Source of the DNA: Nocardioides jiangsuensis | GTDB taxonomy: Bacteria > Actinomycetota > Actinomycetes > Propionibacteriales > Nocardioidaceae | Assembly: GCF_019679455.1 (NCBI RefSeq) | Contig: NZ_JAIEZQ010000001.1 | Location: forward strand, 868,001-932,000 | Reading direction: 5' to 3' | DNA: 64,000 nt | Part shown: piece after piece, positions 37,178-59,339 of the stretch | How the letters are laid out: each line of letters starts with the position of its first letter | Position numbering within the stretch: position 1 is the stretch's first letter | Position numbers and translations under genes: made by a program | Notes under the pieces: model-generated | Databases searched by the model: none | What the model was told of the DNA's origin: nothing | The model's input: only the letters and a program-made list of their open reading frames with translations

Positions 37178-37193
37178 GCACCGTCCCTGGTGC
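37178..37193 (-). promoter_or_regulatory. candidate CsrA-binding hairpin in the flhA leader
   Basis: Read on the minus strand, GCACC-AGGGAC-GGTGC forms a 5-bp stem with the hexaloop AGGGAC (ANGGAN form). It lies 32 nt before the start codon, downstream of the flhA promoter. A second GGA loop, GCC-AGGAC-GGC, is at 37203-37213. Confidence 0.5.
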
Positions 37194-37221
37194 GTCGAGG
37201 CTGCCGTCCTGGCGGAGCGTC

Positions 37222-37248
37222 CTATCGGCCGGGGGCGGGGGCACCTGA
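37222..37248 (-). promoter_or_regulatory. FliA-type promoter of flhA, overlapping the flhB stop codon
   Basis: TCAG (37245-37248), 15 nt, then GCCGATAG (37222-37229) on the minus strand. The final TAG of the -10 box is the flhB stop codon. Leader to the flhA GTG is about 70 nt. Confidence 0.75.
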
Positions 37249-38388
37249 GGAGTTCTCGTCGGCCGCTCCCGGGCGGGCCGCGCGGCGCCGTCCGCGGGTG
37301 AGCGTAGGCAGCGTCTTCGCCGTGCGCGGGGACCGGTGCCGCCCCGCCGCGGAGCCGCGCGCCCGGCGGCTGAGCACGAACGCCAGCACCTGGGCGACCG
37401 CGTGGTAGAGCTCCGGCGGGATCTCCTGGCCGACCTCGCAGCTCGCGTGCAGGGCACGGGCGAGCGGCACGTCCTCGACCAGCGGCACCCGGCTGCTCTC
37501 GGCGAGCTCGCGGATCCGGGCGGCCACGGCGCCGGCGCCCTTGGCCACCACCCGGGGCGTCCCGCGATCCGCCTCGTAGCGCAGCGCGACGGCGACGTGC
37601 ACCGGGTTGACCAGGACCACGTCGGCCTGGGGCACGTCGGCCATCATCCGGTTCCGCGCGGCGGCGAGCTGGCGGGCCCGGAGCGCCCCGCGCACCATCG
37701 GGTCGCCCTCGCTCATCCGGTGCTCGTCGCGGACCTCCTTCTTGGTCATCCGGACCTGCTTGCCGGTACGGCGCCGCGCCATCGCGTAGTCCGCGGCCGC
37801 CGCCAGCAGGCCCGCGACCGCGACGTCCCGCATCAGCGTGGTCGCCGCGGAGGCCGCGAGCTCGAGCGCGGCGTCGACCGGCACCAGCCCGCCGAGCAGC
37901 GGCATCAGCTCCTTGACCCCGCGCCACACGAGCAGCGCCACCACCGCGCTCTTCACCAGGATCTTGGCGCCCTCCCACAGGGCGTGCGGGCCGAACAGTC
38001 GCTTCGCGCCCTGGAGCGGGTTGAGCCGGGACCACTTGGGCTTGAGGGTCTTCGTCGCCAGGTGCAGCCCGCCCTGGCCGGCGGCGGAGACGACGCCGAC
38101 GAACAGCACGCCGATGCCGAGCGCCAGGGACAGCAGCAGGGCCAGCGTCGAGCCCTCCTGGAGCAGCTGCAGCGCGCGGCCCGCCTCCGGCTGCTCCACC
38201 AGCGCGAGGGAGGTGACCAGCAGCTCGCGGATCTCGTCGGTGCCGTGCTGGACCAGCCAGCCGAGCATCATCGCGACCACCAGCATCGAGGCCCAGCCGC
38301 CGATCTCGGGGGTCCGCGCGACCTGCCCCTCCTTGCGGCTGTCCTTCAGCTTCTTGGGGGTGGCCTTCTCGGTGCGCTCCTCGCTCAC
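37222..38388 (-). CDS. flhB: flagellar biosynthesis protein FlhB
   Basis: FlhB is the export-gate protein that switches secretion from hook to filament substrates. It has 388 residues: a conserved start SEERTEKATPKKLKDSRKEG, four transmembrane helices between about 30 and 210, and a cytoplasmic domain with the autocleavage site VVLVNPVHVAVALRY. Here the usual NPTH reads NPVH; the Asn-Pro cut position is kept. The C-terminal tail of about 40 residues is basic and not conserved. GTG 38388 overlaps the fliR stop (GTGA). The last codons also serve as the flhA promoter. Confidence 0.96.
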   Translation of the reverse strand: MSEERTEKATPKKLKDSRKEGQVARTPEIGGWASMLVVAMMLGWLVQHGTDEIRELLVTSLALVEQPEAGRALQLLQEGSTLALLLSLALGIGVLFVGVVSAAGQGGLHLATKTLKPKWSRLNPLQGAKRLFGPHALWEGAKILVKSAVVALLVWRGVKELMPLLGGLVPVDAALELAASAATTLMRDVAVAGLLAAAADYAMARRRTGKQVRMTKKEVRDEHRMSEGDPMVRGALRARQLAAARNRMMADVPQADVVLVNPVHVAVALRYEADRGTPRVVAKGAGAVAARIRELAESSRVPLVEDVPLARALHASCEVGQEIPPELYHAVAQVLAFVLSRRARGSAAGRHRSPRTAKTLPTLTRGRRRAARPGAADENSSGAPAPGR

Positions 38389-39143
38389 CCGATCACCGCC
38401 ATCGCGTCGTTGGCGGCGTCGACGAGCCGGTCGATCGCGTGCGGCAGCACCGGGAAGGACATGCCGACGACGAGCAGGGTGAGCCCGATCTTGGCCGGGA
38501 ACATGATGCCGATCGCGTTCAGCTGCGGCGCGACCTTGGTGAGCAGGGCGAGGCCGAGGTCGGCGATGAACAGCACCGCGACCAGCGGCAGCGCGATCTG
38601 CACCGCGCAGGTGAAGAACACCCCGAAGGCGACGGTCACCACCGAGGTCACGTCCTCGGGCTGCCACGGGGCGCCCACCGGGACCCGCTCGAACGTCGAC
38701 AGCAGGCCGCCGAAGACGAGCAGGTGCGCGTCGGTGGCGAACAGCAGCATCGTCGCGAGCATCCCGTGCAGCTTGCCGAAGACCGAGTTGTTGTTCATCG
38801 ACATCGGGTCGAACGCGGCGGCGAGGCTGAAGCCGCCGAACACGTCGACGAGGTCACCGGCCGCCTGGACCGCGGCGAAGACGAGGTAGGTGACGAAGCC
38901 CATCGTGGCCCCGAGGAGAGCCTCCTGCAGCGCGTAGGTGACCAGCGTGACCAGGTCCTGCGGCACCTCCTCGAGCGACAGGGCCGGGGCGACCGCGAAG
39001 GCGAGGCCGAGTGCCAGCAGCGTCTTCGCGGCGACCGGCACGGCCCGGGACGAGAACGGCGGCACGATCACCAGCCAGGCGACCACCCGGACCGCGGCGA
39101 GCACGTAGAGGATGAACGGCTCCCCCGCCAGCGTGATGGTCAC
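38385..39143 (-). CDS. fliR: flagellar biosynthetic protein FliR
   Basis: FliR, 252 residues with about six transmembrane helices, forms the export gate with FliP and FliQ. Characteristic stretches are RVVAWLVIVPPFSSRAVPVAAK near the N-terminus and GDLVDVFGGFSLAAAFDP in the middle, followed by MSMNNNSVFGKLHG. Length matches the family. It begins 2 nt after the fliQ stop and overlaps flhB by 4 nt. Confidence 0.95.
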   Translation of the reverse strand: MTITLAGEPFILYVLAAVRVVAWLVIVPPFSSRAVPVAAKTLLALGLAFAVAPALSLEEVPQDLVTLVTYALQEALLGATMGFVTYLVFAAVQAAGDLVDVFGGFSLAAAFDPMSMNNNSVFGKLHGMLATMLLFATDAHLLVFGGLLSTFERVPVGAPWQPEDVTSVVTVAFGVFFTCAVQIALPLVAVLFIADLGLALLTKVAPQLNAIGIMFPAKIGLTLLVVGMSFPVLPHAIDRLVDAANDAMAVIG

Positions 39144-39145
39144 CG

Positions 39146-39415
39146 CTACCCCAGCAGGCTGGGGATGCGCGCGAACAGGTCCTCGGTGAACGCGACCAGC
39201 GTGTGCAGCATCCAGTTGCCGGAGACCAGCAGCGCGATCCCCACGCCGATCAGCTTCGGCACGAAGGAGAGCGTGAACTCCTGGATCTGGGTCATCGACT
39301 GCACGAGCGAGATGACGAACCCGATGACCAGGGCGGGAACGAGGATGGGGGCGCAGAGCTTGAGCGCGACCAGCATGGTCTGAAGCGCGATGTCGAGGAC
39401 GCTGCTGTCGGTCAC
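39146..39415 (-). CDS. fliQ: flagellar biosynthetic protein FliQ
   Basis: The 89-residue protein has the two transmembrane helices of FliQ and the conserved pattern LCAPILVPALVIGFVISLVQ followed by TQIQEFTLSFVPK. It is part of the FliPQR core of the export gate. The GTG at 39415 was chosen because it lies 5 nt after the fliP stop and gives the normal length. Confidence 0.95.
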   Translation of the reverse strand: MTDSSVLDIALQTMLVALKLCAPILVPALVIGFVISLVQSMTQIQEFTLSFVPKLIGVGIALLVSGNWMLHTLVAFTEDLFARIPSLLG

Positions 39416-39420
39416 CGCTC

Positions 39421-40359
39421 TCAGCCCCCGCCGTAGCTGGCGACCAGCGAGCGCACGATCAGCCCCCACCCGTCCACGAGGACGAACAGCAGCAGCTTGA
39501 AGGGCAGGGAGACCATCACCGGCGGCATCATCATCATGCCGAGCGACATCAGGGCCGCGCTGACCACGATGTCGATCACCAGGAACGGGATGAAGATCAC
39601 GAAGCCGATGATGAAGGCCTGCTTGAGCTCGCTGAGGATGAACGCCGGCACCAGCGTCGCCATCCCGACGTCGTCCTGGTTGTCGGGCATCGGCCGGTCG
39701 GCGACCTCGGTGAGCAGGGCCAGCTCCTCGTCGCCGGTCTGCCCGAGCATGAAGCCCCGGAGCGGCTCGATGCCGTCCTCCCATGCCTGCGTCTGCGTCT
39801 TGTCGCCGTCCAGGTAGGGCTGGAGGCCCTCGTCGTTCATCTCCGACAGCACCGGCGACATGATGAACAGGCTCAGGAAGAGGGCGAGCCCGGCGAGCAC
39901 CTGGTTGGGCGGGATCTGCTGGAGGCCGAGCGCGTTCCGGGTGAGGCCCAGGACGACCAGGATCTTGGTGAAGCTGGTCGTGGTCAGCAGGATCGCCGGG
40001 ACCAGCGACAGCAGGGTCAGCCCGAGCAGCACCAGGACCGGGGTGCTCGGCTTCTTCGTCAGGTCGTCGAACTCCACGGTGACGTCGCCGCCGTTCGCGC
40101 CCCGCGGACCACGGGGGCCGTCCGGCGCCAGCGGCACCGGGGCGAGGGCGGGGCTCGCGACGACCGAGCCGGAGGCGGCCGTCCCCGCGGGTACGGCGGT
40201 CGCCGGCACGTAGGCCGCGACCGGGCCGGCCGCCGCGAGGGGGGTCGTGACGGGAGCGGCGACCGCGGGAGCGGCGCCGAGGGCGAGGCCACCGAGGCAG
40301 GCCAGGAGGAGGAGCACGCCCGCGACGAGGCGACACGCTCCCGGGGTCGGGTCAGGCAC
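39421..40359 (-). CDS. fliP: flagellar biosynthetic protein FliP
   Basis: FliP is the central pore protein of the flagellar export gate. The 312-residue product has a cleavable signal sequence (LVAGVLLLLACLGGLALGAAPAVA), as in other FliP proteins, then a Pro/Ala-rich stretch of about 60 residues, then the FliP core: ILTTTSFTKILVVLGLTRNA, PPNQVLAGLALFLSLFIMSP and GFVIFIPFLVIDIVVSAAL. The extra-cytoplasmic spacer is longer than in E. coli FliP (245 residues). GTG 40359 overlaps the end of fliO. Confidence 0.95.
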   Translation of the reverse strand: MPDPTPGACRLVAGVLLLLACLGGLALGAAPAVAAPVTTPLAAAGPVAAYVPATAVPAGTAASGSVVASPALAPVPLAPDGPRGPRGANGGDVTVEFDDLTKKPSTPVLVLLGLTLLSLVPAILLTTTSFTKILVVLGLTRNALGLQQIPPNQVLAGLALFLSLFIMSPVLSEMNDEGLQPYLDGDKTQTQAWEDGIEPLRGFMLGQTGDEELALLTEVADRPMPDNQDDVGMATLVPAFILSELKQAFIIGFVIFIPFLVIDIVVSAALMSLGMMMMPPVMVSLPFKLLLFVLVDGWGLIVRSLVASYGGG

Positions 40360-40795
40360 CGGCGGAGCCGTTCCTGCTGGTGGCCGCGGCCCAGGCCTGC
40401 TTCCAGGTGGTGCCGGCGAGCAGCGAGCCGCTCGTGCCGCGCGGGGCCGCGTGCAGGGGACCGCCGGCCAGCGCCCGGACGGGGCGCGTCCCCAGCGCGT
40501 CGGCGGGGTCCGTCGTGGCACGCTCCGGCTGCACCGGGACGCGGCTGGTCAGCTCGGCCGGGTCCATCTCGGTGAGCAGGGAGACACCGCCGTCGCTGAC
40601 CCCGACCACGAGCACCCGCTCGCCCACCTCGACCACGGCGAGGGAGGAGCCGCGCGACAGCGGCTGGCGGGCCACCACCGCGACGACGGAGCGGGAGCGG
40701 CCGCCGAGCTTCCGCGAGCTCGCCCGGGCCACGAACCACATGAGGCCGAGGACGATGCCCAGGGAGAGCACCACGCGCAGGACCAGCTCGACCAC
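40352..40795 (-). CDS. fliO: flagellar biosynthetic protein FliO
   Basis: The 147-residue protein has one N-terminal transmembrane helix (LRVVLSLGIVLGLMWFVAR) and a small cytoplasmic domain with RSVVAVVARQPLSRGSSLAV and ERVLVVGVSDGGVSLL, the pattern of FliO. FliO helps assemble the FliP ring. The GTG at 40795 is the first plausible start after fliN; no strong Shine-Dalgarno is visible, so translation may depend on coupling with fliN 5 nt upstream. The tail beyond residue 90 is poorly conserved. Confidence 0.85.
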   Translation of the reverse strand: MVELVLRVVLSLGIVLGLMWFVARASSRKLGGRSRSVVAVVARQPLSRGSSLAVVEVGERVLVVGVSDGGVSLLTEMDPAELTSRVPVQPERATTDPADALGTRPVRALAGGPLHAAPRGTSGSLLAGTTWKQAWAAATSRNGSAGA

Positions 40796-40800
40796 GAGGC

Positions 40801-41565
40801 TCAGCTCGCAGCCGCGTTGGCGGCGACGATCTCGGTGATGCGCAGCGCGAAGTCCTCGTCGACCACGACCACCTCGCCACGGGCGATCAGCCGCCCGTTC
40901 ACGAGGAGGTCGGCCGGGCTGCCGGCGGCGCGGTCGAGCTCGAGGACGTCGCCGGGGGTCAGCGCGAGCAGCTCGCGCACGGACAGCCGGGTGCGACCGA
41001 GCTCGACGGTGACGTCCATCGCCACGCCGTGCAGCAGCTCGATCCCGGGACGGGCCTGCGCCACCGGCGCCGGGGCGGCGGTCGCCGTACGCACCGGCGC
41101 CACCTGCGGGGCGGTGCCGCCGAGCAGCAGCACCGCCGCGGTGCTCCCGCCGACGAGCAGCGGCACGCTGTGCGTGGCGGCGGCGAGCGCGGCGGGCACC
41201 TCGGAGGCGTCCAGGGACCGGCCGGCCGAGGCGGTGGTGCCCAGCGCGGCAGCCGCCGCGTCCAGGGCGGGCTGCACCGCGGCGCCGAGCTCGAGCGGGC
41301 CCATCGGGGACTCCGCCAGCGCGGCCACCAGGTCCGGGCCGACCAGGACCGCGACCGTGCCGTCGGCGGTGCCGGTGAGCGTGGCCACCGCGGCACCCGC
41401 CCAGGCGGCGGCGTCGACGAGCACGGCCGGCTGCACGACCCCGGCGACGAGCTCCCCGGGGGCGGGCAGCAGCGGGGCGACCGCCTGCGCGGCGCGCTCG
41501 GCGCTCTCGTCGGAGACCGGCGCGGACGCGGGATCGTGGGCGGCGGGCTTGCCGATGAGGGACAT
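40801..41565 (-). CDS. fliN: flagellar motor switch protein FliN with extended N-terminal domain
   Basis: The C-terminal 80 residues are the SpoA (FliN) domain: GVAMDVTVELGRTRLSVREL, then GDVLELDRAAGSPADLLVNG and IARGEVVVVDEDFALRI. FliN forms the bottom of the C-ring where CheY-P acts. The protein is 254 residues, about twice the E. coli length. The first 165 residues resemble in size and composition the CheC-like part of FliY, but the D/S-x3-E-x2-N phosphatase motif of CheC is not seen. ATG 41565 overlaps the fliM stop (TGATG). Confidence 0.92.
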   Translation of the reverse strand: MSLIGKPAAHDPASAPVSDESAERAAQAVAPLLPAPGELVAGVVQPAVLVDAAAWAGAAVATLTGTADGTVAVLVGPDLVAALAESPMGPLELGAAVQPALDAAAAALGTTASAGRSLDASEVPAALAAATHSVPLLVGGSTAAVLLLGGTAPQVAPVRTATAAPAPVAQARPGIELLHGVAMDVTVELGRTRLSVRELLALTPGDVLELDRAAGSPADLLVNGRLIARGEVVVVDEDFALRITEIVAANAAAS

Positions 41566-42518
41566 CAGTTCTCCTGGGTGGACGGCGCGACGATGAGGCA
41601 GGCCAGGCGCTGGCCGGCGCTGCCGGGGGTGGCATGGGCGAAGACGACGTCCGCGGCGGTCACGTCGAGCGGGGCCTGCGCGGGGTGGCGGAGCCGGACC
41701 ACGTCACCGACCGTGAGACCGACGAGGTCGGCCGGGTCGGCGGTGGTGCCGCGGAACCGCACCGCGACCTCGACCGGGACCTCCTGGAAGCCCTCGGCGA
41801 GGCGGGCCGAGGCCTGCTCGCGCTGGGCGCGCTCCCGCTCAGAGACCACACCGGCGGTGCCGCTGGCGTTGAGGAAGGGCAGCAGGCCGTTGAACGACAT
41901 GCACAGGGTGACCACGTCCTCGGCGTCGCCGCGCCGCAGCACGAACCGGGCCACCACCATCGGGTCGGACGCAGCCGCGACCTGCGCAAGCTGCGGGCTG
42001 TACTCCACCCCGGTGACGACGGGCTCGAGCCGCACCAGCGAGGCGAACGCGTAACGGACCTCGCTGACCAGCCGCTCGACGAGCCCGCCGACGACGGTGC
42101 TCTCGAGGTCGGTGAGCGGACGCGCCGGCTGGGCCTCGGTGCCGGGGCCGCCGAGGAGGTGGTCCAGGCAGGCCATCGTGGTGGGGAGCGGGATCTCCAG
42201 GACGGCCGGCTGCTGGACCGGGTCGAGGGAGAACACGGTGAGGTACGTCGCGTCCGCGAGCGTCTCGACGTACTCGGTGTAGGTCAGCTGCTCCACCGAC
42301 AGCAGGGTGAGCTCGCAGACGGTGCGCAGCGCCGACGTCATCACGATCGACGTCTGTCGCGCGTAGGTCTCGAAGGCGATCTGGAGCGTGCGCGAGTTCT
42401 CGCGCGACAGCTTCACGGGTCGCCGGAAGTCGTACGGCGTCGGTTCCGTCCGGGCAGGCCGACGTCGTGCGTGGACGGAGGACGCACGCACGGGGGTCAC
42501 GGACGAGGGGGCGGTCAC
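41565..42518 (-). CDS. fliM: flagellar motor switch protein FliM
   Basis: The 317-residue FliM links the C-ring to FliG and binds CheY-P. It shows YDFRRPVKLSRENSRTLQIAFE early, the middle domain with a GGPG loop (LLGGPGTEAQ) and a C-terminal SpoA-like domain (EVPVEVAVRFRGTTADPADL). The usual N-terminal CheY-binding motif (LSQ-E-I-D-A-L) is not present in the first 30 residues. The GTG start sits only 8 nt after a FliA-type -10 box and has no Shine-Dalgarno, so the mRNA is probably leaderless. First gene of fliM-N-O-P-Q-R-flhB. Confidence 0.93.
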   Translation of the reverse strand: MTAPSSVTPVRASSVHARRRPARTEPTPYDFRRPVKLSRENSRTLQIAFETYARQTSIVMTSALRTVCELTLLSVEQLTYTEYVETLADATYLTVFSLDPVQQPAVLEIPLPTTMACLDHLLGGPGTEAQPARPLTDLESTVVGGLVERLVSEVRYAFASLVRLEPVVTGVEYSPQLAQVAAASDPMVVARFVLRRGDAEDVVTLCMSFNGLLPFLNASGTAGVVSERERAQREQASARLAEGFQEVPVEVAVRFRGTTADPADLVGLTVGDVVRLRHPAQAPLDVTAADVVFAHATPGSAGQRLACLIVAPSTQEN

Positions 42519-42526
42519 GAGGGGCT

Positions 42527-42553
42527 GTATCGGCTCGTCGTGGCGGCACCTGA
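42527..42553 (-). promoter_or_regulatory. FliA-type promoter of the fliM-flhB operon
   Basis: TCAG (42550-42553), 15 nt, then GCCGATAC (42527-42534) on the minus strand, 8 nt before the fliM GTG. Confidence 0.8.
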
Positions 42554-42587
42554 GCAGAACCGGCCGTCCCTCTTCGGGACGGTGGTC

Positions 42588-43912: not shown

Positions 43913-43913
43913 G

Positions 43914-44687
43914 TCAGGCGGCCCTCTGCTCGGTCTCGCGCTCCTCGGCCGGGAGCAGCGACTGCAGCCGCTGGGCGACGACGCGGGGGTTGCTGCCGGC
44001 CTGGATCGCCATCACGCCTTCGACGACGAGCTCCATCCGCTGCGCCTCGAGCTCGCCGATCCGGGAGAGCCGGCTGCCGATCGGCAGCCAGACCACGTTC
44101 GCGGACAGCACGCCCCACAGCGTGGCGATGAACGCGCCGGCGATGAGGTGGCCGAGCTCCTCGGGCTGGGAGAGGTTCTCGAGCACGTGCACGAGACCCA
44201 TGACGGTGCCGATGATGCCGATCGTGGGGGCGTAACCGCCCATGTCGTTGAAGAACTTCGCGGCGTGCTTGTCCGCGGACCGCTTGGCGAACAGCTCGGA
44301 CTCGAGGATCTCGCGCAGCTCGTCGGGGTCGGTCCCGTCGACGGCCAGGGACACCCCGCGGCGCAGGAAGTCGTCGTCGACCTCCTTGGCCGCGTCCTCC
44401 AGCATCAGCAGGCCCTCGCGGCGGGCCTTGTCGGCCAGCGAGACCACGACCGGGACCAGCTCGGCCGGCGGCGTCGCCTTCCAGGCCATCGCCCGCTTGA
44501 GCGAGGTGACCGCGTGCTTGGCATCGGCCATCGTGCCGCCCGCGACCGCGGCGCCGACCGTGCCGCCGAAGACCAGCAGCATCGGAGGAAGGAGCAGCAG
44601 CGACATCGGGTTGCCGCCCTCGAGCACGTTGGCGACGAGGATCGCGGCGAGGCCGAGGCCGACGCCGATGGGGGTGGCGCGGTCCAT
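43914..44687 (-). CDS. motA: flagellar motor stator protein MotA
   Basis: MotA (257 residues) has four transmembrane helices and the cytoplasmic loop that acts on FliG. Conserved parts are LLPPMLLVFGGTVGAAVAGG, KARREGLLMLEDAAKEVDDDFLRRG and FFNDMGGYAPTIGIIGTVMGLVHVLENL. ATG 44687 is chosen because GGGAGG lies 4 nt before it; GTG 44690 directly upstream is possible and would overlap the flbD stop. Confidence 0.95.
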   Translation of the reverse strand: MDRATPIGVGLGLAAILVANVLEGGNPMSLLLLPPMLLVFGGTVGAAVAGGTMADAKHAVTSLKRAMAWKATPPAELVPVVVSLADKARREGLLMLEDAAKEVDDDFLRRGVSLAVDGTDPDELREILESELFAKRSADKHAAKFFNDMGGYAPTIGIIGTVMGLVHVLENLSQPEELGHLIAGAFIATLWGVLSANVVWLPIGSRLSRIGELEAQRMELVVEGVMAIQAGSNPRVVAQRLQSLLPAEERETEQRAA

Positions 44688-44983
44688 CACGCCTCCCGGT
44701 GCGGGAAGGCCAGCACGTCGAGGTCGTCGTCGGGGCCCGGTACGGCGGTCAGCCGCGAGCGCCGTACGGTCGAGCGCTCCATGGCCTCGAGGGACCCGGC
44801 GGCGGCGATCAGGCGGGCGCGGAAGTCGAGCACCGCGGCGACCACGTCGTCGAGCGACTCGCGCACGAGGTACTTCGTGCCGTCGACCAGCGTGATGACG
44901 GTGTCGGGCGTCGTGTCGACCCGTTCGACGAGATCCGGGTTCAGGGCGAACACCGCTCCCGTGAGACGCGTGAGCGTGACCAT
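44687..44983 (-). CDS. flbD: FlbD/SwrD family flagellar protein
   Basis: The 98-residue protein starts with the compact FlbD (SwrD) domain: MVTLTRLTGAVFALNPDLVE then VITLVDGTKYLVRESLDDVV. In Bacillus SwrD raises torque by supporting stator function, which fits its place directly before motA. The C-terminal 40 residues are not conserved. It has its own FliA-type promoter and a leader with two CsrA-like sites, one covering the Shine-Dalgarno. Confidence 0.92.
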   Translation of the reverse strand: MVTLTRLTGAVFALNPDLVERVDTTPDTVITLVDGTKYLVRESLDDVVAAVLDFRARLIAAAGSLEAMERSTVRRSRLTAVPGPDDDLDVLAFPHREA

Positions 44984-44990
44984 CTGCGCA

Positions 44991-45001
44991 CCATCCTTGT
45001 G
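44991..45001 (-). promoter_or_regulatory. candidate CsrA site at the flbD Shine-Dalgarno
   Basis: CACAAGGATGG on the minus strand contains ACAAGGATG, an exact match to the core of the CsrA consensus ACARGGAUG, and it includes the ribosome binding site AAGGA of flbD. Confidence 0.55.
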
Positions 45002-45011
45002 CCGTGGAGAA

Positions 45012-45031
45012 CAGGGCCGTCCGTGGCCCTG
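45012..45031 (-). promoter_or_regulatory. candidate CsrA-binding hairpin in the flbD leader
   Basis: CAGGGCC-ACGGAC-GGCCCTG on the minus strand: a 7-bp stem with the hexaloop ACGGAC (ANGGAN form). It lies between the flbD promoter and the Shine-Dalgarno. Confidence 0.6.
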
Positions 45032-45040
45032 CACCCCCAC

Positions 45041-45067
45041 GGATCGGCCGATGCGCGCCGAACCTGA
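45041..45067 (-). promoter_or_regulatory. FliA-type promoter of flbD-motA-motB-fliL
   Basis: TCAG (45064-45067), 15 nt, then GCCGATCC (45041-45048) on the minus strand; about 58 nt before the flbD ATG and just after the flgE stop. Confidence 0.8.
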
Positions 45068-45078
45068 GCGGTTCGGGG

Positions 45079-45927: not shown

Positions 45928-46008
45928 GGGGGTGTCCTTTCGACAGGTGCCGGGGGCCGGCGGGGTGGGGAGCGGTGAGCGGGGCTGACGGTCGGGTAGC
46001 GGGTGACG

Positions 46009-46422: not shown

Positions 46423-46434
46423 GGGGGTCTCCTT

Positions 46435-48809: not shown

Positions 48810-48813
48810 GCGC

Positions 48814-52313: not shown

Positions 52314-53905
52314 CCGCCGTGTCCCACCAGCCAGCCGCGCAGCAGCTGCGCGACCTCCTCGGGCTGACGCTCCACGAGCGCAGCGATCTCGTCACGGGCG
52401 CTCTCGCGCAGGTCGTCCTCGTCGTCATAGCCTGCCTCGAGCGCCGCGGCGGCCGGCAGCGTGGAGACCGCGGTCCGCTCGGCGGCGTCCCGACGCAGCT
52501 GCTCGACGACGTACGTCGTGGCCTCGTCGCGCGCCTGGCGGCGCTTGCGGCCCCGCAGCCAGGCCGCGAAGAAGATGCCGGCGACCACGAGCGCGAGCGC
52601 ACCGGTCTTGAGCATCGACATCAGCTCGGCCTGCTTCTCGGCGGCCTTCGCCTCGGCGAGCGCCTTGGCCGCGGCCTCCTCCGCGCTCCGGTCGAACTGC
52701 ATCGCGCTGACCTCGACGGTGTCGCCGCGGTCGGCGTCGATCCCGAGCGCCGAGGTCACCAGGTTCTGCACCTCGGGGGTGGTGATGCCGCCGACCGAGG
52801 CCGAGTCGAGCACGATGCCGACGTGCAGGCTGTCCACCGTGCCGGGGGCGGCCTCGCGCTGCTCGATGGTCTTGCCGACCGCGTTGTCGGAGGTGCGCTG
52901 CTCCTTGCGGTAGTTCGTCTCCCCGTCCTCGTCGGCGTTGCCCGCGGCGGGGTCGAGCCCGCCGTCCGGACCGACCACCCCACCGATGCCGGCCTGACCG
53001 GGCGCCGTGTAGGTCTCGGTGAGCGTGGTGTCCGACAGCGGTACGGCGTCGGGGTCGCTGAAGTAGCGGGTGGTGTTGGTGACCGTCTTGTCGAAGTTCA
53101 GGTCCGCGGTGACCTTGACCGCGGAGTTGCCCGCGCCGACGACCCGGTCCAGCACGTCCTGCACGGAGCCGGACATCCGCTCCTCGAAGGCCTTCACCTG
53201 CTGCGAGCGGGTGTCGGCGACGGTGTCGAAGCCGTCCCCGGAGGTGGAGAGCACCGTGCCGGTGGAGTCCGCGACGGTGACCTGCTTGGGGTCGAGGCCC
53301 TCGACGCTGGAGGCCACGAGGTGGACGACCGCCTGCACCTGCTCGGGGTCGAGGTCGGAGCCGGGCCGGGTCTCGACGAGGACCGACGCGGTGGTCGGCT
53401 CCTGCTCGTCGGCGAACAGCTCGTCCTGCGGGAGCGCGAGGTGCACGACCGCGGTCTCGACGGAGTCGAGCGCCTCGATGGTGGTCTGGAGCTCCCCCTC
53501 CATGGCCCGCTTGTAGCCGGTCTGCTCCTGGAACTGGGAGGTGGAGAGGTCCTGCTCGTCGAGGATCGCGTAGCCGCTCGAGCCCTCGCTGGGGAGGCCC
53601 TCGCCGCTCAGCCGGATCCGGGCGTCGTACACGTCGGCGCGGGGCACGAGGATCGTCGCGCCGCCGTCGCCGAGCTCGTACGGCGTGCCGTCGGCCTCGA
53701 GCTGCTCGACGATCGCGGAGGCGTCCGCCGGCGCGACGTTGGTGAACAGCGGCGCGTACGACGGGGCGGCGGCCCACCGGAACAGGAGGACCGCGCCCAT
53801 GACGAGTGCGAGGCCGCCGACGACCGCGACGGTCTTCTGGCCGGCGGTGAAGGACGCGAAGACCCGCTGGAACGCCTGGAGGCGTCCGGTCAGCTGCTGG
53901 CGCAT
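52310..53905 (-). CDS. fliF: flagellar MS-ring protein FliF
   Basis: FliF (531 residues) builds the MS ring in the membrane. Transmembrane helices lie at about 27-45 (VAVVGGLALVMGAVLLF) and 440-460 (TGALALVVAGIFFAAWL). Between them are the ring-building domains with SSGYAILDEQDLSTSQFQEQ and LDPKQVTVADSTGTVLS; a low-complexity loop (about 300-345) interrupts the beta collar. The C-terminal tail that binds FliG has ARDEIAALVERQPEEVAQLL. The ATG overlaps the fliE stop (TGATG). Confidence 0.95.
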   Translation of the reverse strand: MRQQLTGRLQAFQRVFASFTAGQKTVAVVGGLALVMGAVLLFRWAAAPSYAPLFTNVAPADASAIVEQLEADGTPYELGDGGATILVPRADVYDARIRLSGEGLPSEGSSGYAILDEQDLSTSQFQEQTGYKRAMEGELQTTIEALDSVETAVVHLALPQDELFADEQEPTTASVLVETRPGSDLDPEQVQAVVHLVASSVEGLDPKQVTVADSTGTVLSTSGDGFDTVADTRSQQVKAFEERMSGSVQDVLDRVVGAGNSAVKVTADLNFDKTVTNTTRYFSDPDAVPLSDTTLTETYTAPGQAGIGGVVGPDGGLDPAAGNADEDGETNYRKEQRTSDNAVGKTIEQREAAPGTVDSLHVGIVLDSASVGGITTPEVQNLVTSALGIDADRGDTVEVSAMQFDRSAEEAAAKALAEAKAAEKQAELMSMLKTGALALVVAGIFFAAWLRGRKRRQARDEATTYVVEQLRRDAAERTAVSTLPAAAALEAGYDDEDDLRESARDEIAALVERQPEEVAQLLRGWLVGHGG

Positions 53906-54219
53906 CAGATCGACATCCGCATGATCTCTTGGAACGCCTCGAGGGCCTTGTTACGCACCGCGGTGGTGAGCTGCGTGGTGACCGCGGCCTCGGTCGCGGT
54001 GATCGTGTAGTCGTGCAGGTTCGCCAGGTCGCCGCTGGCCGCCTGGACGGCGAGCTGGTCGGCCTTGTCGTGCAGCGACTGCAGCCGGTCGACGCCGTCG
54101 GAGAGCATGCTGGCGAAGTCGACGCCGCCGGCGTTCTCGGGGGCGGTCGCGGCCGACGGGGAGGCGACCGGGGCCACGAAGGGGACGAAGCCGCCGGGCT
54201 CGATGGCGGGGATGCTCAT
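53905..54219 (-). CDS. fliE: flagellar hook-basal body protein FliE
   Basis: The 104-residue FliE joins the MS ring to the rod. The conserved second half reads DFASMLSDGVDRLQSLHDKADQ and DLHDYTITATEAAVTTQLTT-like sequence (here NLHDYTITATEAAVTTQL), ending ALEAFQEIMRMSI, which is standard. ATG 54219 overlaps the flgC stop. Confidence 0.93.
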   Translation of the reverse strand: MSIPAIEPGGFVPFVAPVASPSAATAPENAGGVDFASMLSDGVDRLQSLHDKADQLAVQAASGDLANLHDYTITATEAAVTTQLTTAVRNKALEAFQEIMRMSI

Positions 54220-54614
54220 GCGTTGCGTCCGATCGAGAGGGCGCTGGAGTAGACGTCCTGCGCGTTCCGGATCACCGCGGCCTGCGCCTGGAACCCGCGC
54301 TGGGCCATGACCAGCTGGCTCATCTGGGAGGCCATGTCGACGTCCGGCATCCGCACGTAGCCGTCCTCGTCGGCGAGGGGGTGCTCCGGGTTGTGCACCA
54401 TCCGGCCCTCGGGGTCGCCGAGCGCGATCCCGGAGACCTCGACGCCGCCGTCCGGCACGGCCTCGGCCATGACGAACTGCGCCTGGAAGGCGTCCTCGTC
54501 GGTGGAGCGGACGGTGTTGACGTTGGCGATGTTGAACGACACCGCGTCCAGCCAGGTCTGGTGCGTGGCCAGGCCGCTGCCGGCGATGCCGAGCATGTCG
54601 AAGGCACCCATCAC
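54216..54614 (-). CDS. flgC: flagellar basal-body rod protein FlgC
   Basis: FlgC (132 residues) is a proximal rod subunit. It starts FDMLGIAGSGLATHQTWLDAVSFNIANVNT in outline, with the N-I-A-N motif, and ends with DVDMASQMSQLVMAQRGFQA and AVIRNAQDVYSSALSIGR. GTG 54614 overlaps the flgB stop; the ATG one codon later is equally possible. Confidence 0.94.
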   Translation of the reverse strand: MMGAFDMLGIAGSGLATHQTWLDAVSFNIANVNTVRSTDEDAFQAQFVMAEAVPDGGVEVSGIALGDPEGRMVHNPEHPLADEDGYVRMPDVDMASQMSQLVMAQRGFQAQAAVIRNAQDVYSSALSIGRNA

Positions 54615-54970
54615 ATGCCGCCGATCGCGGTGGTGACGAGGGAGTACCGGTCACCCACGGAGCGGGTGAGCAGCTGGTACTGGAAGACCGACTGCATCGC
54701 GGTCATCGTCTCGGTGGCCAGGTCGACGTTGTTGCCGTTCGCGCCGGCCGGGGCCGAGGAGAGACCGGTGGTGGGCAGCACGTCGCCCTCGGTCATCTCC
54801 CCGTCGGCGAGGGCGCTGCGCAGCGAGCTCTCGAAGTCGAGGGTGGCAGCCGTGAACCCGGGGGTGTCGATGTTGGCGATGTTGTCCGCCGCGACCCGTT
54901 GGCGCAGCGCAAGGCCGTCGAGCGCGCTGCCGAGGGCAGCCGCGACGGGGTCCGACGCAGAGACCAGCAT
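54611..54970 (-). CDS. flgB: flagellar basal-body rod protein FlgB
   Basis: FlgB (119 residues), a proximal rod subunit, has the N-terminal RQRVAADNIANIDTPGFTAA motif and the C-terminal VDLATETMTAMQSVFQYQLL motif. It is the first gene of a twelve-gene unit running to flgE, behind a FliA-type promoter at 55046-55072 and a leader of about 70 nt with a GGA-loop hairpin. The Shine-Dalgarno AGGAGA is 9 nt before the ATG. Confidence 0.94.
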   Translation of the reverse strand: MLVSASDPVAAALGSALDGLALRQRVAADNIANIDTPGFTAATLDFESSLRSALADGEMTEGDVLPTTGLSSAPAGANGNNVDLATETMTAMQSVFQYQLLTRSVGDRYSLVTTAIGGM

Positions 54971-55000
54971 GTGATCCGTCTCCTGGGGAGGCGTGAGGCT

Positions 55001-55014
55001 GCCGGTCCGTCGGC
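55001..55014 (-). promoter_or_regulatory. candidate CsrA-binding hairpin in the flgB leader
   Basis: GCCG-ACGGAC-CGGC on the minus strand: a 4-bp GC stem with the hexaloop ACGGAC, 30 nt before the flgB start. The Shine-Dalgarno AGGAG adds a second GGA. Confidence 0.45.
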
Positions 55015-55045
55015 GGAGGGGTGAGCGATCCCTGCTCGTGGTCTT

Positions 55046-55072
55046 CCTTCGGCCACCCCGCGCGGGACCTGA
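55046..55072 (-). promoter_or_regulatory. FliA-type promoter of the flgB-flgE operon
   Basis: TCAG (55069-55072), 15 nt, then GCCGAAGG (55046-55053) on the minus strand. The -10 box is the weakest of the six (AAGG instead of AT). Confidence 0.7.
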
Positions 55073-55129
55073 GGAAATCCTGTCCCTTTTCGTCCGATTT
55101 CCGCGCGGCGCCGCGGCGGGCGCAGCGGG

Positions 55130-55435
55130 TCAGGCGGTGACGTCGACGTACACCGGCTGCTGCTCGGCCCCGGTGTGCATCCGGCCGGCCAGCGCCGCCT
55201 GCCTGCGGACCGCGGCGACCGCCTCGGTTGTCGCGGCCACCGCCGCCTGCTGGCGGTGGTGCAGCAGCAGCGCCCGGGTGCGCAGGTCAGCCGGCATCGG
55301 TCCCGGGACCTGCGGCGGCACCCAGGCCGGGAGCGGGGTGCTGCCCGCTCCCGCCAGCAGCCGGTCGGCGGCGTCCAGGCTCAGCTCGAGCTCGTCGAGC
55401 GCGACCTCCCAGACGGCACGCCAGTCCTGGTCCAT
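55130..55435 (-). CDS. small protein after fliS, possible FliT-like chaperone
   Basis: The 101-residue acidic protein is mainly helical, with WRAVWEVALDELELSLDAAD at the start and a Pro-rich break (PLPAWVPPQVPGPMP) in the middle. ATG 55435 gives a start 14 nt after the fliS stop. I recognise no family. Genes in this position, after fliD and fliS, often encode FliT, the chaperone of FliD, which is a short four-helix protein; that role is an inference from place and size alone. Confidence 0.65.
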   Translation of the reverse strand: MDQDWRAVWEVALDELELSLDAADRLLAGAGSTPLPAWVPPQVPGPMPADLRTRALLLHHRQQAAVAATTEAVAAVRRQAALAGRMHTGAEQQPVYVDVTA

Positions 55436-55449
55436 CGTGGTGGCGCCGG

Positions 55450-55827
55450 TCAGCCGGCGGCGAGCGAGGTGAGCGCCGCCTCGCGCCACGCGTCGGCCAG
55501 CGGCACGAGCACGGTGAGGCAGTCGTCGGTCACCGCGGCGTCGCGGCTCGTGTTGGCGCGGACCAGCTCCCTGTGCAGCCAGCTGTAGATGGCCGACAGC
55601 CGCTCAGAGCCCTCCCAGACCCCGTGCTTCAGGGACCCGCTCAGCTCGAGCACGATCTCCTGGGCGTGCATCAGGTGCTGGCCCGCGGTCTGGTGGTCGC
55701 CGGCACGCTGGGACTCGACGGCGCGCTGGACGTCGAGGACGAGCCGGTCGTAGAGCATCACCAGGAGCCGGGTGGGGCTCGCGGTGGTGACCATCTGGCC
55801 GACGTAGGCGGCGCGGGGGTTGTTCAT
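55450..55827 (-). CDS. fliS: flagellar export chaperone FliS
   Basis: FliS (125 residues) binds the C-terminus of flagellin and keeps it unpolymerised in the cytoplasm. The pattern AAYVGQMVTTASPTRLLVMLYD at the start and the later GVWEGSERLSAIYSWLHREL match FliS. Its Shine-Dalgarno TAGGAGG includes the stop codon TAG of fliD, so the two genes are closely coupled. In Bacillus FliS also helps free CsrA by removing flagellin from FliW competition, a link worth noting because fliW and csrA are in the cluster. Confidence 0.93.
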   Translation of the reverse strand: MNNPRAAYVGQMVTTASPTRLLVMLYDRLVLDVQRAVESQRAGDHQTAGQHLMHAQEIVLELSGSLKHGVWEGSERLSAIYSWLHRELVRANTSRDAAVTDDCLTVLVPLADAWREAALTSLAAG

Positions 55828-55837
55828 CGTGGTCCTC

Positions 55838-57214
55838 CTACGAACCTGACGTCGGCAGTGAGCTGATCTGTCCCGCGAGCCAGGACGACTGCTGCTGGAG
55901 CTGGCCGAGCGCGACCTCGAGCGCGGCGTACTGCCGCTCCAGCGCGCTCTGGCGCTGGCCGAGGCGGACGTCCCAGTCCGCGATGTCGTCCTCCCAGCCC
56001 CGGATCTGGGACTGGCGGCCCTTGATGGCCAGGGTGACCGTGCCGTCCAGGGAGTCGCTGAGCTGCTTGGCGAGAGCCTCGAGGTTGTCGGCGAAGCCGG
56101 CCGTGGGGGTGGTCCCGTCGATGCCGGCGATCCTGGCGGTGGTGCCCGCTGCGTCGGCCTCGTAGGCCGCGGCGAACCTGGCGGCGTCGAAGGTGAGCTT
56201 GCCGGAGCGGTCGGTCTGGATGCCGACGGAGGCCAGGGACTGGCCGCCGACGCCTCCGGAGACCGTCTGCAGCAGCCGGTCGCGGACCGTGCGCAGGGTG
56301 CTGTCGCCACCGAGCAGCCCGGACTTCTTGGCGGTCGCGTCGTACGCCGTGAGCGTGTCGATGTCGCTGAGGGCGGCGTTGACCGCGTCCACCATCGCCT
56401 TGACCGAGTCCGACAGCGCGGTGGTGTCGCGCGTGACGGTGATCGTCGCGGTCTGTCCCGCGGAACCCGCGCCGAGCGTGACGTCCACGCCCGGCATCAG
56501 CCCCGTGACGGTGTTGGTCGACGAGGTCAGCGCCTGGCCGTTGAGGCTGAACGCGGCGTCCGTGCCCGGCTTCTGCGTCGCCGTCTCGCCGTCGAGGAAC
56601 GGCGCCGCGGCCGGGTCCACCGGACTGATGGTGAAGCCGGTGTCCGCCCCGGTCGTCGCGGAGCTGACCTGCATCGCGTAGACCGGGTTCCCCGTGGCGT
56701 CGGTGCCGGTCCGCAGGAGGGTTGCCCTCAGCCCGGTGGTCGAGGCGTTGACGGCGTCCGCCACCGAGCGCATCGTGCCGTCACCGACCGTGAAGGTGAC
56801 CGGGGTTCGGGTCGGGTCGGCGAAGGTGACCTGGTACTCGGCGTCCTGGGTCGCGACGGCCGTCCCGAGCGTGCCGGTCCTGGCGTAGGTCGAGATGGCG
56901 CTGGTCGCCGGCCCGGTCACGTCCAGCGTGAACGAACCGGGCGTGGCGCCGGTGGTCGTCTTCACGGTCACGAACGGGTTGTCGCTGGTGGCCTTGGCCG
57001 GCGACCAGCTCGTGGTCCTGCCGAGGTCGGCGGCCTTGGCGGCGATCCCGGCCAGCTTGGTGTTCAGCGCCTGGAGCGCGGTGACGACCTTCTGCTCGGT
57101 CGAGACGCGGGTCTTGAGCGTGGTCTGCGGCTTGGCCTCGAGCTGCATCAGCTGGCTGATGATCGTGGAGGTGTCGAGCCCGCTGACGAGCCCGCTCACG
57201 CTGGTGCTGGCCAT
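55838..57214 (-). CDS. fliD: flagellar filament cap protein FliD
   Basis: FliD (458 residues) caps the filament and folds flagellin at the tip. The N-terminal ASTSVSGLVSGLDTSTIISQ with LMQLEAKPQTTLKTRV is the FliD coiled-coil start; the C-terminal coiled coil is QRQSALERQYAALEVALGQL followed by QQQSSWLAGQI. The middle (about 80-370) is rich in Thr/Ala/Gly and will be surface-exposed. ATG 57214 has GGAGGAG upstream. No FliA-type promoter was found for it; it may be read through from fliC or use another promoter. Confidence 0.94.
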   Translation of the reverse strand: MASTSVSGLVSGLDTSTIISQLMQLEAKPQTTLKTRVSTEQKVVTALQALNTKLAGIAAKAADLGRTTSWSPAKATSDNPFVTVKTTTGATPGSFTLDVTGPATSAISTYARTGTLGTAVATQDAEYQVTFADPTRTPVTFTVGDGTMRSVADAVNASTTGLRATLLRTGTDATGNPVYAMQVSSATTGADTGFTISPVDPAAAPFLDGETATQKPGTDAAFSLNGQALTSSTNTVTGLMPGVDVTLGAGSAGQTATITVTRDTTALSDSVKAMVDAVNAALSDIDTLTAYDATAKKSGLLGGDSTLRTVRDRLLQTVSGGVGGQSLASVGIQTDRSGKLTFDAARFAAAYEADAAGTTARIAGIDGTTPTAGFADNLEALAKQLSDSLDGTVTLAIKGRQSQIRGWEDDIADWDVRLGQRQSALERQYAALEVALGQLQQQSSWLAGQISSLPTSGS

Positions 57215-57237
57215 GGGGCCGTCTCCTCCAGGTCCGT

Positions 57238-57251
57238 CGGGGTCCGTCCCG
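57238..57251 (-). promoter_or_regulatory. candidate CsrA-binding hairpin in the fliD leader
   Basis: CGGG-ACGGAC-CCCG on the minus strand: 4-bp stem with the hexaloop ACGGAC, 24 nt before the fliD ATG. A second ACGGAC follows directly and the Shine-Dalgarno carries GGAGGA. Confidence 0.5.
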
Positions 57252-57303
57252 GCGCCGTACCGGTGCCGGTGCCGCGCCGGCTGGGGCCGGCAGAGGCTGG
57301 TGG

Positions 57304-57341
57304 CCGGTGGGGACGGGGGTTGGCGGTCCCGCCCCCACCGG
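57304..57341 (-). other. hairpin between fliC and fliD
   Basis: CCGGTGGGG (57304-57312) pairs with CCCCACCGG (57333-57341), 9 bp, with further pairing possible inside. Together with the hairpin at 57351 it could reduce read-through from fliC into fliD. Confidence 0.5.
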
Positions 57342-57350
57342 CGTGTCGAC

Positions 57351-57379
57351 CGGGGACGGCGCTTGCGGCGCCGCCCCCG
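57351..57379 (-). terminator. terminator after the flagellin gene
   Basis: A 12-bp stem (57351-57362 with 57368-57379) and 5-nt loop, 22 bp after the fliC stop. In the minus-strand RNA the one non-Watson-Crick position is a G-U pair, whereas it would be an A-C mismatch in the opposite direction. Confidence 0.65.
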
Positions 57380-57401
57380 TCAACGAGTCAGTGACAGGTC
57401 A

Positions 57402-58220
57402 TCACTGGAGCAGACGCAGCACACCCTGCGGCGCCTGGTTCGCCTGGGCCAGCATCGCGGTGCCGGCCTGGGACAGGATCTGCGAGCGGGTGAAGGCGAC
57501 CATCTCGGAGGCCATGTCGGTGTCGCGGATCCGGCTCTCCGACGCGGACAGGTTCTCCACCGCGACGTTGAGGTTGTTGATCTTGTGCTCGAGTCGGTTC
57601 TGGACCGCACCGAGGCCGGCGCGCTCCGTGGAGACCGTCTTGATCGCGGCGTCGATGTTGTCCAGCGCGGTCTGGGCGGTGGCCGTGGTGGTGAGGTCAC
57701 CGACTGCGGTCAGGATGGTGGCCGCCTTCATGTCACCGATGGTGACCTGAAGCTGCTCGCCCGAGTTGGCGCCGACCTGGAAGGCCTTGTCGTAGGTGCC
57801 GTCGAGCAGCGCCGTGCCGTTGAACGTGGTCTTGTTGGCGATGTCGTCGAGCTCGAGCGCGAGGGCCTGGTACTCGGTGTTGGCCGCGGCCTGCGCGTCC
57901 GTGCCCTGGGAACCCTCGTTGGACGCCTGCACCGCGAGGTCGCGCATGCGCTGCAGGATGGAGTGCGTCTCGGTGAGCGCACCCTCCGCGGTCTGGACGA
58001 CGGAGACGCCGTCCTGGGCGTTGCGCACGGCGACCTTGAGGCCACCGGTCTGGGCGCGCAGGCCCTCGCTGATCGCGAGACCGGCCGCGTCGTCCGCCGC
58101 GCGGTTGATGCGGAAACCGCTGGACAGCTTCTCCAGCGACTTCGACATCTGACCGTCGGTGACCGACAGGTTGCGGTACGCGTTCATCGCCGCGATGTTC
58201 TGGTTGATGCGAAGACCCAT
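57402..58220 (-). CDS. fliC: flagellin
   Basis: The 272-residue flagellin is a minimal form. The D0/D1 N-terminal helix starts MGLRINQNIAAMNAYRNLS and continues with EKLSSGFRINRAADDAAGLA; the C-terminal helix ends with SQILSQAGTAMLAQANQAPQ and GVLRLLQ. Only about 60 residues lie between the helical parts, so the outer D2/D3 domains are absent, like Bacillus Hag. ATG 58220 has the strong AGGGAGGA. A FliA-type promoter and a GGA-loop hairpin precede it, the same arrangement as the CsrA-controlled hag leader. Only flagellin gene in the window. Confidence 0.96.
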   Translation of the reverse strand: MGLRINQNIAAMNAYRNLSVTDGQMSKSLEKLSSGFRINRAADDAAGLAISEGLRAQTGGLKVAVRNAQDGVSVVQTAEGALTETHSILQRMRDLAVQASNEGSQGTDAQAAANTEYQALALELDDIANKTTFNGTALLDGTYDKAFQVGANSGEQLQVTIGDMKAATILTAVGDLTTTATAQTALDNIDAAIKTVSTERAGLGAVQNRLEHKINNLNVAVENLSASESRIRDTDMASEMVAFTRSQILSQAGTAMLAQANQAPQGVLRLLQ

Positions 58221-58226
58221 GATTTT

Positions 58227-58234
58227 TCCTCCCT
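58227..58234 (-). promoter_or_regulatory. fliC ribosome binding site, possible second CsrA contact
   Basis: AGGGAGGA on the minus strand, 6 nt before the ATG, contains two GGA triplets, about 29 nt from the GGA in the upstream hairpin loop. Confidence 0.5.
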
Positions 58235-58248
58235 GAGTGGGTCGAGAA

Positions 58249-58266
58249 CGGCCCGTCCATGGGCCG
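58249..58266 (-). promoter_or_regulatory. candidate CsrA-binding hairpin in the fliC leader
   Basis: CGGCCC-ATGGAC-GGGCCG on the minus strand: a perfect 6-bp GC stem with the hexaloop ATGGAC (ANGGAN form). It would begin within a few nucleotides of the predicted transcription start. Confidence 0.65.
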
Positions 58267-58277
58267 TGACGCAGGAG

Positions 58278-58304
58278 GGATCGGCCGCTCCTGCGGGAAC
58301 CTGA
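58278..58304 (-). promoter_or_regulatory. FliA-type promoter of fliC
   Basis: TCAG (58301-58304), 15 nt, then GCCGATCC (58278-58285) on the minus strand, right after the fliA stop. Leader about 50 nt. Confidence 0.8.
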
Positions 58305-58308
58305 GGCG

Positions 58309-59304: not shown

Positions 59305-59339
59305 AACCGTGTCCTGGCTCGTTCACCGTGCGTTATCGC

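Follow-up and report, generated by a model that had tools for sequence, protein, structure and literature searches.

The leader of hag, the flagellin gene of Bacillus subtilis, is under CsrA-FliW control (Yakhnin 2007 and Mukherjee 2011, via PMC7652899 and PMC8523840). Campylobacter jejuni CsrA binds many flagellar mRNAs, with FliW as its main antagonist, and there two hexaloops of flaA lie 21 nt apart and the optimum spacing for a CsrA dimer is 18 nt (PMC4894983). Among actinobacteria, a CsrA site at the flagellin Shine-Dalgarno sequence of Kineococcus radiotolerans was predicted in 2008 from its likeness to hag BS2, in a study that left FliA control open (PMC2587704). The usual checkpoint protein FlgM is stated to be absent from the non-FlgFG classes (PMC10746217) and from four genomes (PMC2587704); with FliA present and FlgM apparently absent in flagellated actinobacteria of this kind, the tie between flagellar expression and flagellar assembly has been in question since at least 2008. 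Here we describe, in a stretch of 64,000 nucleotides from Nocardioides jiangsuensis (the window), hairpins with GGA loops in the leaders of four flagellar operons, those of fliC, flgB, flbD and flhA.

These hairpins are probably CsrA-binding sites in the leaders of sigma-28-driven operons, which would give a CsrA-FliW regulon that reaches the rod, stator and export-gate operons. Like hag, where FliW is the antagonist, the flagellin leader has two CsrA sites (here predicted), one of them over the Shine-Dalgarno sequence; unlike the hag case, conserved sites also occur in three further operon leaders, and in two of these they mostly do not touch the Shine-Dalgarno sequence. The 22–25 nt spacing of the sites resembles the 21 nt of flaA and the 18-nt optimum in Campylobacter, which belongs to another phylum and whose targets are flaG, flaB, flgI and others (PMC4894983), whereas here the proposed ones are flgB, flbD and flhA. 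Kineococcus shares with our organism its standing as an actinobacterium, a csrA gene in the motility island, the lack of FlgM and a predicted site at the flagellin Shine-Dalgarno sequence, but that prediction, in the part of the study available, concerns one gene and names neither hairpins nor other operons (PMC2587704). The FliW-CsrA-FliC system of Clostridioides difficile likewise controls flagellin by partner switching and has two predicted sites; it differs in that, in the part of that study available, flagellin is the only target (PMC8523840). Campylobacter is the precedent for the breadth of the regulon and Kineococcus for the fliC site. Bacillus, which the sequence-only reading of this DNA had used as its baseline, is a poor yardstick: the host is an actinobacterium, and broad flagellar CsrA binding was already known in C. 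jejuni (PMC4894983). CsrA control of flagellin is known from Bacillus, Clostridioides and Campylobacter, and the new part is the flgB, flbD and flhA leaders in actinobacteria; in the open-licence literature, as far as it was available, we found no report of CsrA-type leaders on actinobacterial flgB, flbD or flhA operons. The conserved GGA-hairpin leaders of all four operons point to CsrA-FliW as the tie between expression and assembly, and suggest that one RNA-binding protein helps to coordinate flagellum building where FlgM is not found. With them CsrA would gain a well-defined group of early-gene targets in the phylum, within a leader family for which Rfam returned no match.

GGA hairpins behind FliA-like promoters

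The window comes from an actinobacterium of the Nocardioidaceae, the family of Nocardioides pocheonensis, with a genome of 3.97 Mb; the G+C content of the window is 73%. The flagellar cluster runs from fliA to flhA on the minus strand and continues as flgN-flgK-flgL-fliW-csrA on the plus strand. Within it, flgB is the first gene of a run for the rod, MS ring, switch and export ATPase, flbD-motA-motB form the stator operon, and flhA encodes the export gate. Six CTCAGG-N14-GCCGA sites, likely FliA promoters, precede fliC, flgB, flbD, fliM, flhA and flgN.

58309..59160, minus strand: fliA, sigma-28-type factor and expected reader of the FliA-like promoters (E 6e-53 and 2e-52 with FliA and WhiG models, short of the curated cut-offs)
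58281..58305, minus strand: putative FliA-like promoter of fliC, CTCAGG-N14-GCCGA (pattern match)
55049..55073, minus strand: putative FliA-like promoter of flgB (pattern match)
45044..45068, minus strand: putative FliA-like promoter of the flbD-motA-motB operon (pattern match)
44687..44983, minus strand: flbD gene (Pfam FlbD PF06289, 84.2 bits; NCBIfam search of the protein without a match)
37225..37249, minus strand: putative FliA-like promoter of flhA (pattern match)
42530..42554, minus strand: putative FliA-like promoter of fliM, without a hairpin in the window (pattern match; GGA hairpin in 5/68 fliM leaders)
59339..59363, plus strand: putative FliA-like promoter of the flgN-flgK-flgL-fliW-csrA run, without a hairpin (pattern match; GGA hairpin in 1/67 flgN leaders)

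The promoter calls are supported because six of the eight exact matches in the genome precede flagellar genes in the window; behind the two matches outside it, no flagellar gene was recognised by eye. A looser pattern, CTCA-N14-18-GCCGA, has 12 sites in the window, the remaining six away from flagellar leaders. Transcription of the leaders would start where this pattern places it.

The sequence-only reading had named five ANGGAC hairpins, ahead of fliC, fliD, flgB, flbD and flhA, and had set them between promoter and start codon in a cluster that includes csrA and fliW. All five are present on the minus (coding) strand, and csrA and fliW do lie in the flagellar cluster. The fliC, flbD, flgB and flhA hairpins stand behind FliA-like promoters; fliD has no such promoter.

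58248..58267, minus strand: fliC leader hairpin, ACGGCCC-AUGGAC-GGGCCGU, 7 bp with a hexaloop (conserved and covarying in relatives; in the minimum-energy fold)
58218..58235, minus strand: fliC Shine-Dalgarno sequence with AGGGA/GGA, a likely second CsrA contact
45011..45032, minus strand: flbD leader hairpin 1, GCAGGGCC-ACGGAC-GGCCCUGU (covarying; in the minimum-energy fold)
44988..45002, minus strand: flbD leader hairpin 2, GCAC-AAGGAUG-GUGC, its loop holding the Shine-Dalgarno sequence (in the minimum-energy fold)
55023..55037, minus strand: flgB leader hairpin 1, GAGC-AGGGAUC-GCUC, with a heptaloop (its inner arms hardly vary across 53 aligned leaders)
55001..55014, minus strand: flgB leader hairpin 2, GCCG-ACGGAC-CGGC
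37203..37213, minus strand: flhA leader hairpin 1, GCC-AGGAC-GGC, a pentaloop with only 3 bp in the window (the pentaloop stem covaries in relatives)
37178..37193, minus strand: flhA leader hairpin 2, GCACC-AGGGAC-GGUGC (covaries in relatives)

Both strands of the window together contain nine ANGGAN hexaloops with at least four Watson-Crick pairs, or ten when wobble pairs are counted, and a random 80-nt segment of it contains such a hairpin with p = 0.0049. Four of the six leaders behind CTCAGG-N14-GCCGA hold one, those of fliM and flgN being without (binomial 9e-9, a guide and not a blind p-value, since the test was devised after the hairpins had been seen).

Conservation and covariation in relatives

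We took flagellin loci from the best 80 of at least 567 relatives in a species collection, and added 77 flhA-flgB stretches from csrA-bearing genomes of the family and from the genomes behind named loci; genes were placed by tblastn and the region from −150 to +15 of each was scanned. The fliC set (n = 81) includes two loci whose titles are not actinobacterial (L073, L079), a pair of contigs from one metagenome-assembled genome (L042, L050) and the second copy from one genome (L023); the flbD, flgB, flhA and flgD sets contain none of these five rows.

ANGGAN hexaloops with at least four Watson-Crick pairs were found in 50/81 fliC, 47/72 flbD, 40/90 flgB and 33/74 flhA leaders. The control, 89 loops with permuted letters, averaged less than 1, with maxima of 8–14, at fliC, flbD, flgB, flhA and flgD, although relatedness can inflate such counts, a single permuted loop having scored 28/71 at fliR. 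When GGA loops of 5–7 nt were admitted, at least one hairpin occurred in 53/81 fliC, 52/72 flbD, 89/90 flgB and 43/74 flhA leaders, and two in 14, 38, 66 and 22 of them, respectively; nine other triplets in place of GGA gave at most 9 per gene (at most 6/90 in flgB) and at most 1 for two hairpins. Without the five doubtful rows the fliC counts are 51/76 and, for two hairpins, 12/76. With one mismatch allowed and six pairs required, the fliC hairpin was present in 64/81 leaders (control maximum 7). That the hairpins are products of chance in 73% GC sequence is hardly credible: four-pair stems are common in GC-rich DNA, and the fliD and motA hairpins look like cases of this kind, but the binomial value and the presence of hairpins in dozens of leaders of each gene, set against the permuted-loop and other-triplet controls, make a chance origin of the fliC, flbD, flgB and flhA hairpins not tenable.

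Covariation was measured with the motif chosen by position alone, the 5' arm being paired with its own 3' arm or with arms swapped between genomes. The mean number of consecutive pairs was 4.92 against 2.59 for swapped arms at fliC (maximum of 2000 swaps, 3.11), 5.42 against 2.98 (3.65) for flbD hairpin 1, 4.56 against 3.15 (4.00) for the AGGAC pentaloop of flhA hairpin 1, and 3.32 against 2.39 (2.95) for flhA hairpin 2; own pairing at fliC, flbD and flhA thus exceeded all 2000 swaps. The loop is closed as C-ANGGAN-G in 62/62 distinct fliC sites, which is the CANGGANG hexaloop form of PMC4894983, in 49/52 flbD sites and in 39/56 flhA sites; flgB departs from it, with G-ANGGAN-C hexaloops or heptaloops. 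Loops retain GGA while their size ranges from 5 to 7 nt. The motif is confined to the sense strand; as its reverse complement the loop turns up 0–1 times per gene.

Inverted repeats just downstream of a promoter could also be DNA operators of a transcription factor, and the fairly fixed distance of the first GGA from the −10-like GCCGA (median 16–21 nt) would suit such operators. Yet the arms at fliC, flbD and flhA covary without their sequence being kept, the loop is kept in the sense orientation only, its length varies, and flbD hairpin 2 contains the Shine-Dalgarno sequence; we regard operators as very improbable.

A model of the relatives' hairpins was built from 62 sites. Of 147 sites with four or more pairs, 110 were listed, and the 62 were chosen from these by hand, G-closed flgB sites being omitted; the alignment covariation of the model was 0.516 against 0.156 when shuffled, a score that, like the closing pair, is biased by the hand selection. 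In the window, flbD, fliC and flhA were the top three of 76 matches, flgB scored 10.2 bits, within noise, and fliD was not listed. In the genome (150 of 4738 candidates scored), flbD hairpin 1 was top and the fliC hairpin third among the 15 matches listed, and flhA hairpin 2 was not among them; this single-hairpin scan, in which genes were not annotated, gave no convincing non-flagellar leader. An Rfam search of window positions 34000–64000 returned three matches with E values as high as 5; each fell short of its gathering score, and none lay at a hairpin.

The sequence-only reading had proposed rod, stator and export-gate units as targets beside fliC and had made stem conservation and covariation the check. 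The proposal survives for flgB, flbD and flhA, which have conserved GGA hairpins, and fails for fliD (1/72 leaders); conservation and covariation both hold at fliC, flbD and flhA, whereas at flgB conservation is near total and covariation does not rise above shuffles.

The flgB leader and other points of weakness

Several observations weigh against CsrA control of these leaders, and many of them concern flgB. Its stems pair at 2.07, with a swapped maximum of 2.10, and the covariation of the named structure was 0.070 against 0.058, with 50 of 500 shuffles as high (a count that used 53 of 89 distinct leaders and a structure with one register of hairpin 2 only). The tandem fold was not recovered when RNAalifold was applied to flgB leaders; the alignment used there includes columns of the promoter and has hairpin 2 in two registers. 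The window's flgB, unlike that of most relatives, has ACGGA near the start codon. Both flgB hairpin 1 and flhA hairpin 2, the latter despite its support from relatives, lie outside the minimum-energy fold of the window leaders, which fold no better than the shuffle mean (z +0.73 for flgB and +0.54 for flhA; the fliC and flbD leaders have z −1.10 and −2.30). The pairing of flbD hairpin 2 equals its swapped maximum (2.75 and 2.75), which is no clear covariation, and arm swapping leaves kinship uncorrected throughout. Neither the plain nor the mismatch form of the hairpin was found in 7/81 fliC leaders, and the distance from the first to the next GGA is scattered at fliC (median 15 nt, n = 30). 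A plain fliC, flbD or flhA hairpin is absent in all six Geodermatophilaceae listed with data, where the fliC stem pairs only with an A-A mismatch. We found csrA in 44/49 genomes behind named loci and not in the other five; in one of these, G330, the contig breaks off short of where csrA would be expected by comparison with G314. Finally, exact CTCAGG-N14-GCCGA is not enriched genome-wide, with 8 matches against 10 for the reversed pattern.

We retain flgB because of its near-universal conservation, its varied hairpin-2 arm pairs and the kept GGA. The hexaloop arms of hairpin 2 are GCCG/CGGC and the heptaloop arms GGCC/GGCC, CGCC/GGCG, UGCC/GGCA and AGCC/GGCU, in a set biased by the choice of arms by stem. 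A wider flgB sample (29 of 30 loci, L229 being left out; L226 seems mis-anchored at a contig edge) had a GGA hairpin in 8/28 non-window loci, with other triplets in at most 3/29; tandem hairpins occurred in 3/28 (L207, L208, L213), and 2/3 loci of the same class had a GGA hairpin. The flgB element therefore belongs chiefly to the class of the window and is scattered outside it.

Site layout and a possible mechanism

The leaders are of two kinds. ANGGA lies in the Shine-Dalgarno region (−22 to −3) of 81/81 fliC and 56/72 flbD leaders, and seldom in flgB (10/59) and flhA (6/63; for both genes, matches starting at most nine residues from the start); baselines ranged from 0/92 at flgC to 27/68 at fliD, and csrA had 29/44. 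We also measured the gap between the first GGA after the promoter and its nearest successor 10 nt or more downstream, whether or not these stood in a hairpin. Medians were 22 nt at flgB (n = 31), 23 nt at flhA (n = 44) and 25 nt at flbD (n = 45), which puts the second GGA within reach of a dimer, and 14 nt at flgN (n = 16), which has no hairpins. Bridging by a CsrA dimer tolerates a wider range of spacings than 18 nt.

We infer CsrA binding and the direction of regulation as follows. One CsrA dimer could bridge the two GGA sites some 22–25 nt apart in flgB, flhA and flbD. The Shine-Dalgarno sequence itself forms the second site at fliC and flbD-motAB, where CsrA should block ribosome binding; translation of both would be repressed because the site covers that sequence. 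Most relatives have the two sites of flgB, and those of flhA, ahead of the Shine-Dalgarno sequence and close to the presumed 5' end; on these leaders CsrA would work differently, most likely through mRNA stability or by partly occluding the leader. FliW, which would bind CsrA and flagellin by turns, would keep CsrA off except while flagellin occupies it, and unexported flagellin would in this way exert feedback on its own expression as well as on the earlier operons.

A stronger version, a switch with two modes, is a tentative possibility: as long as flagellin stays unexported, free CsrA would block fliC and the stator through the Shine-Dalgarno sequence and would protect or promote flgB and flhA through paired hairpins at the 5' end. 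CsrA-FliW would then stand in for the assembly checkpoint that actinobacteria without FlgM lack, sorting early from late genes at the post-transcriptional level. Rather unlikely, in our judgement, is a narrower alternative in which only fliC, and perhaps flbD, are true targets as in Bacillus, while the flgB and flhA hairpins serve another factor (for example an RNase) or are protective 5' hairpins. The uneven Shine-Dalgarno counts of the two kinds of leader and the flgB stems without covariation would fit this alternative, but a plain protective hairpin needs no GGA in its loop, and GGA is kept across loop sizes of 5 to 7 nt, other triplets are rare in flgB, and the flhA stems covary.

CsrA, FliW and FlgM

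The proposed regulator and its candidate antagonist are encoded at the end of the plus-strand run.

62729..62986, plus strand: csrA, 85 amino acids, L4, R6 and R44 present, extending beyond the core (TIGR00202 and NF002469 over cut-off; PDB CsrA/RsmE matches)
62150..62680, plus strand: fliW, candidate CsrA antagonist (FliW NCBIfam models below cut-offs; PDB 5dmb_A, E 1.9e-13)

The PDB entry 5dmb, matched by FliW, also contains a CsrA chain. Among 55 distinct CsrA sequences of the fetched loci, a set that includes L079 (non-actinobacterial by title), L4 is present in 54, R6 in 55 and R44 in 52; we take L4 and R44 to be RNA-contact residues.

In a survey of 293 genomes of the order, csrA was found in 52 and fliC in 50, and all 50 fliC genomes have csrA; csrA therefore behaves as a flagellar gene in the order. 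Two genomes of the family, G148 and G169, had a csrA match without a fliC match. Across 396 genomes of the phylum, csrA was found in 73 and flgB in 60, with both in 55, flgB only in 5 and csrA only in 18; the flgB query was divergent and may miss some genomes. A search of the genome for FlgM gave no match, the same search being positive in 3/14 control genomes.

In some relatives csrA lies elsewhere. It follows flhA by 29–105 bp in G321–G324 and G327–G329, which their locus titles assign to the Microbacteriaceae, and by about 1 kb in G314, G317 and G319. In the fliC loci of all these genomes csrA was not found.

Other leaders

57238..57251, minus strand: hairpin ahead of fliD, CGGG-ACGGAC-CCCG, not accepted as a conserved element

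The fliD hairpin was rejected as a target: it lacks a FliA-like promoter, lies outside the minimum-energy fold and occurs in the window alone among 72 leaders when regions are limited to 165 bases (a wider count of 6/77 is inflated by mis-anchored regions). With one mismatch allowed the count is 3/72 (control maximum 2), which speaks against the rejection, but the three differ in place and sequence, and the hairpin is likely a chance product. A hairpin at the motA start codon (44676–44693), found in 3/69 leaders, was likewise put down to chance.

In the −150 to +15 scan, ANGGAN hexaloops were absent from the leaders of flgN (0/67), fliW (0/59), fliA (0/72), flgC (0/98), fliE (0/92), fliH (0/73), fliN (0/68), fliR (0/71) and flhB (0/72). 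Counts were low at fliF (2/94), fliM (6/68), flgE (4/89), fliI (3/88), motA (3/69), fliP (3/68) and motB (2/68), with one leader each at fliS, fliG and fliL. The flgL count was 9/81, and those compared are flagellin leaders matched by the flgL query.

Hexaloops were more frequent at flgD, in 22/66 leaders, or 21/65 with regions limited to 165 bases; GGA loops of 5–7 nt gave at least one hairpin in 22/65 and two in 4. These hairpins, for example CACGC-ACGGAC-GCGUG (L096, L117), lie about 100–140 nt before the flgD match, and the window has none in its flgD leader. The sequence-only reading had overlooked this hairpin, present in about a third of relatives, as well as the second GGA site in many leaders.

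The csrA leaders themselves had ANGGAN hexaloops in 13/44 cases, carrying ACCC-AUGGAG-GGGU (or ACGGAG) 14–15 nt ahead of the start with a Shine-Dalgarno-like GGAG in the loop. All come from Geodermatophilus, Blastococcus and Modestobacter (L004, L005, L006, L009, L013–L016, L036–L039 and L070), and their sequence suggests autoregulation of csrA in these genera.

The fliM promoter ends about 12 nt ahead of the GTG start, and such a promoter precedes 33/68 fliM genes; the fliM message may be nearly leaderless. Adjoining the flagellar cluster, at window positions 28035–32177, is a repetitive protein of 1380 amino acids with, by eye, a signal-like start and a membrane-like end.

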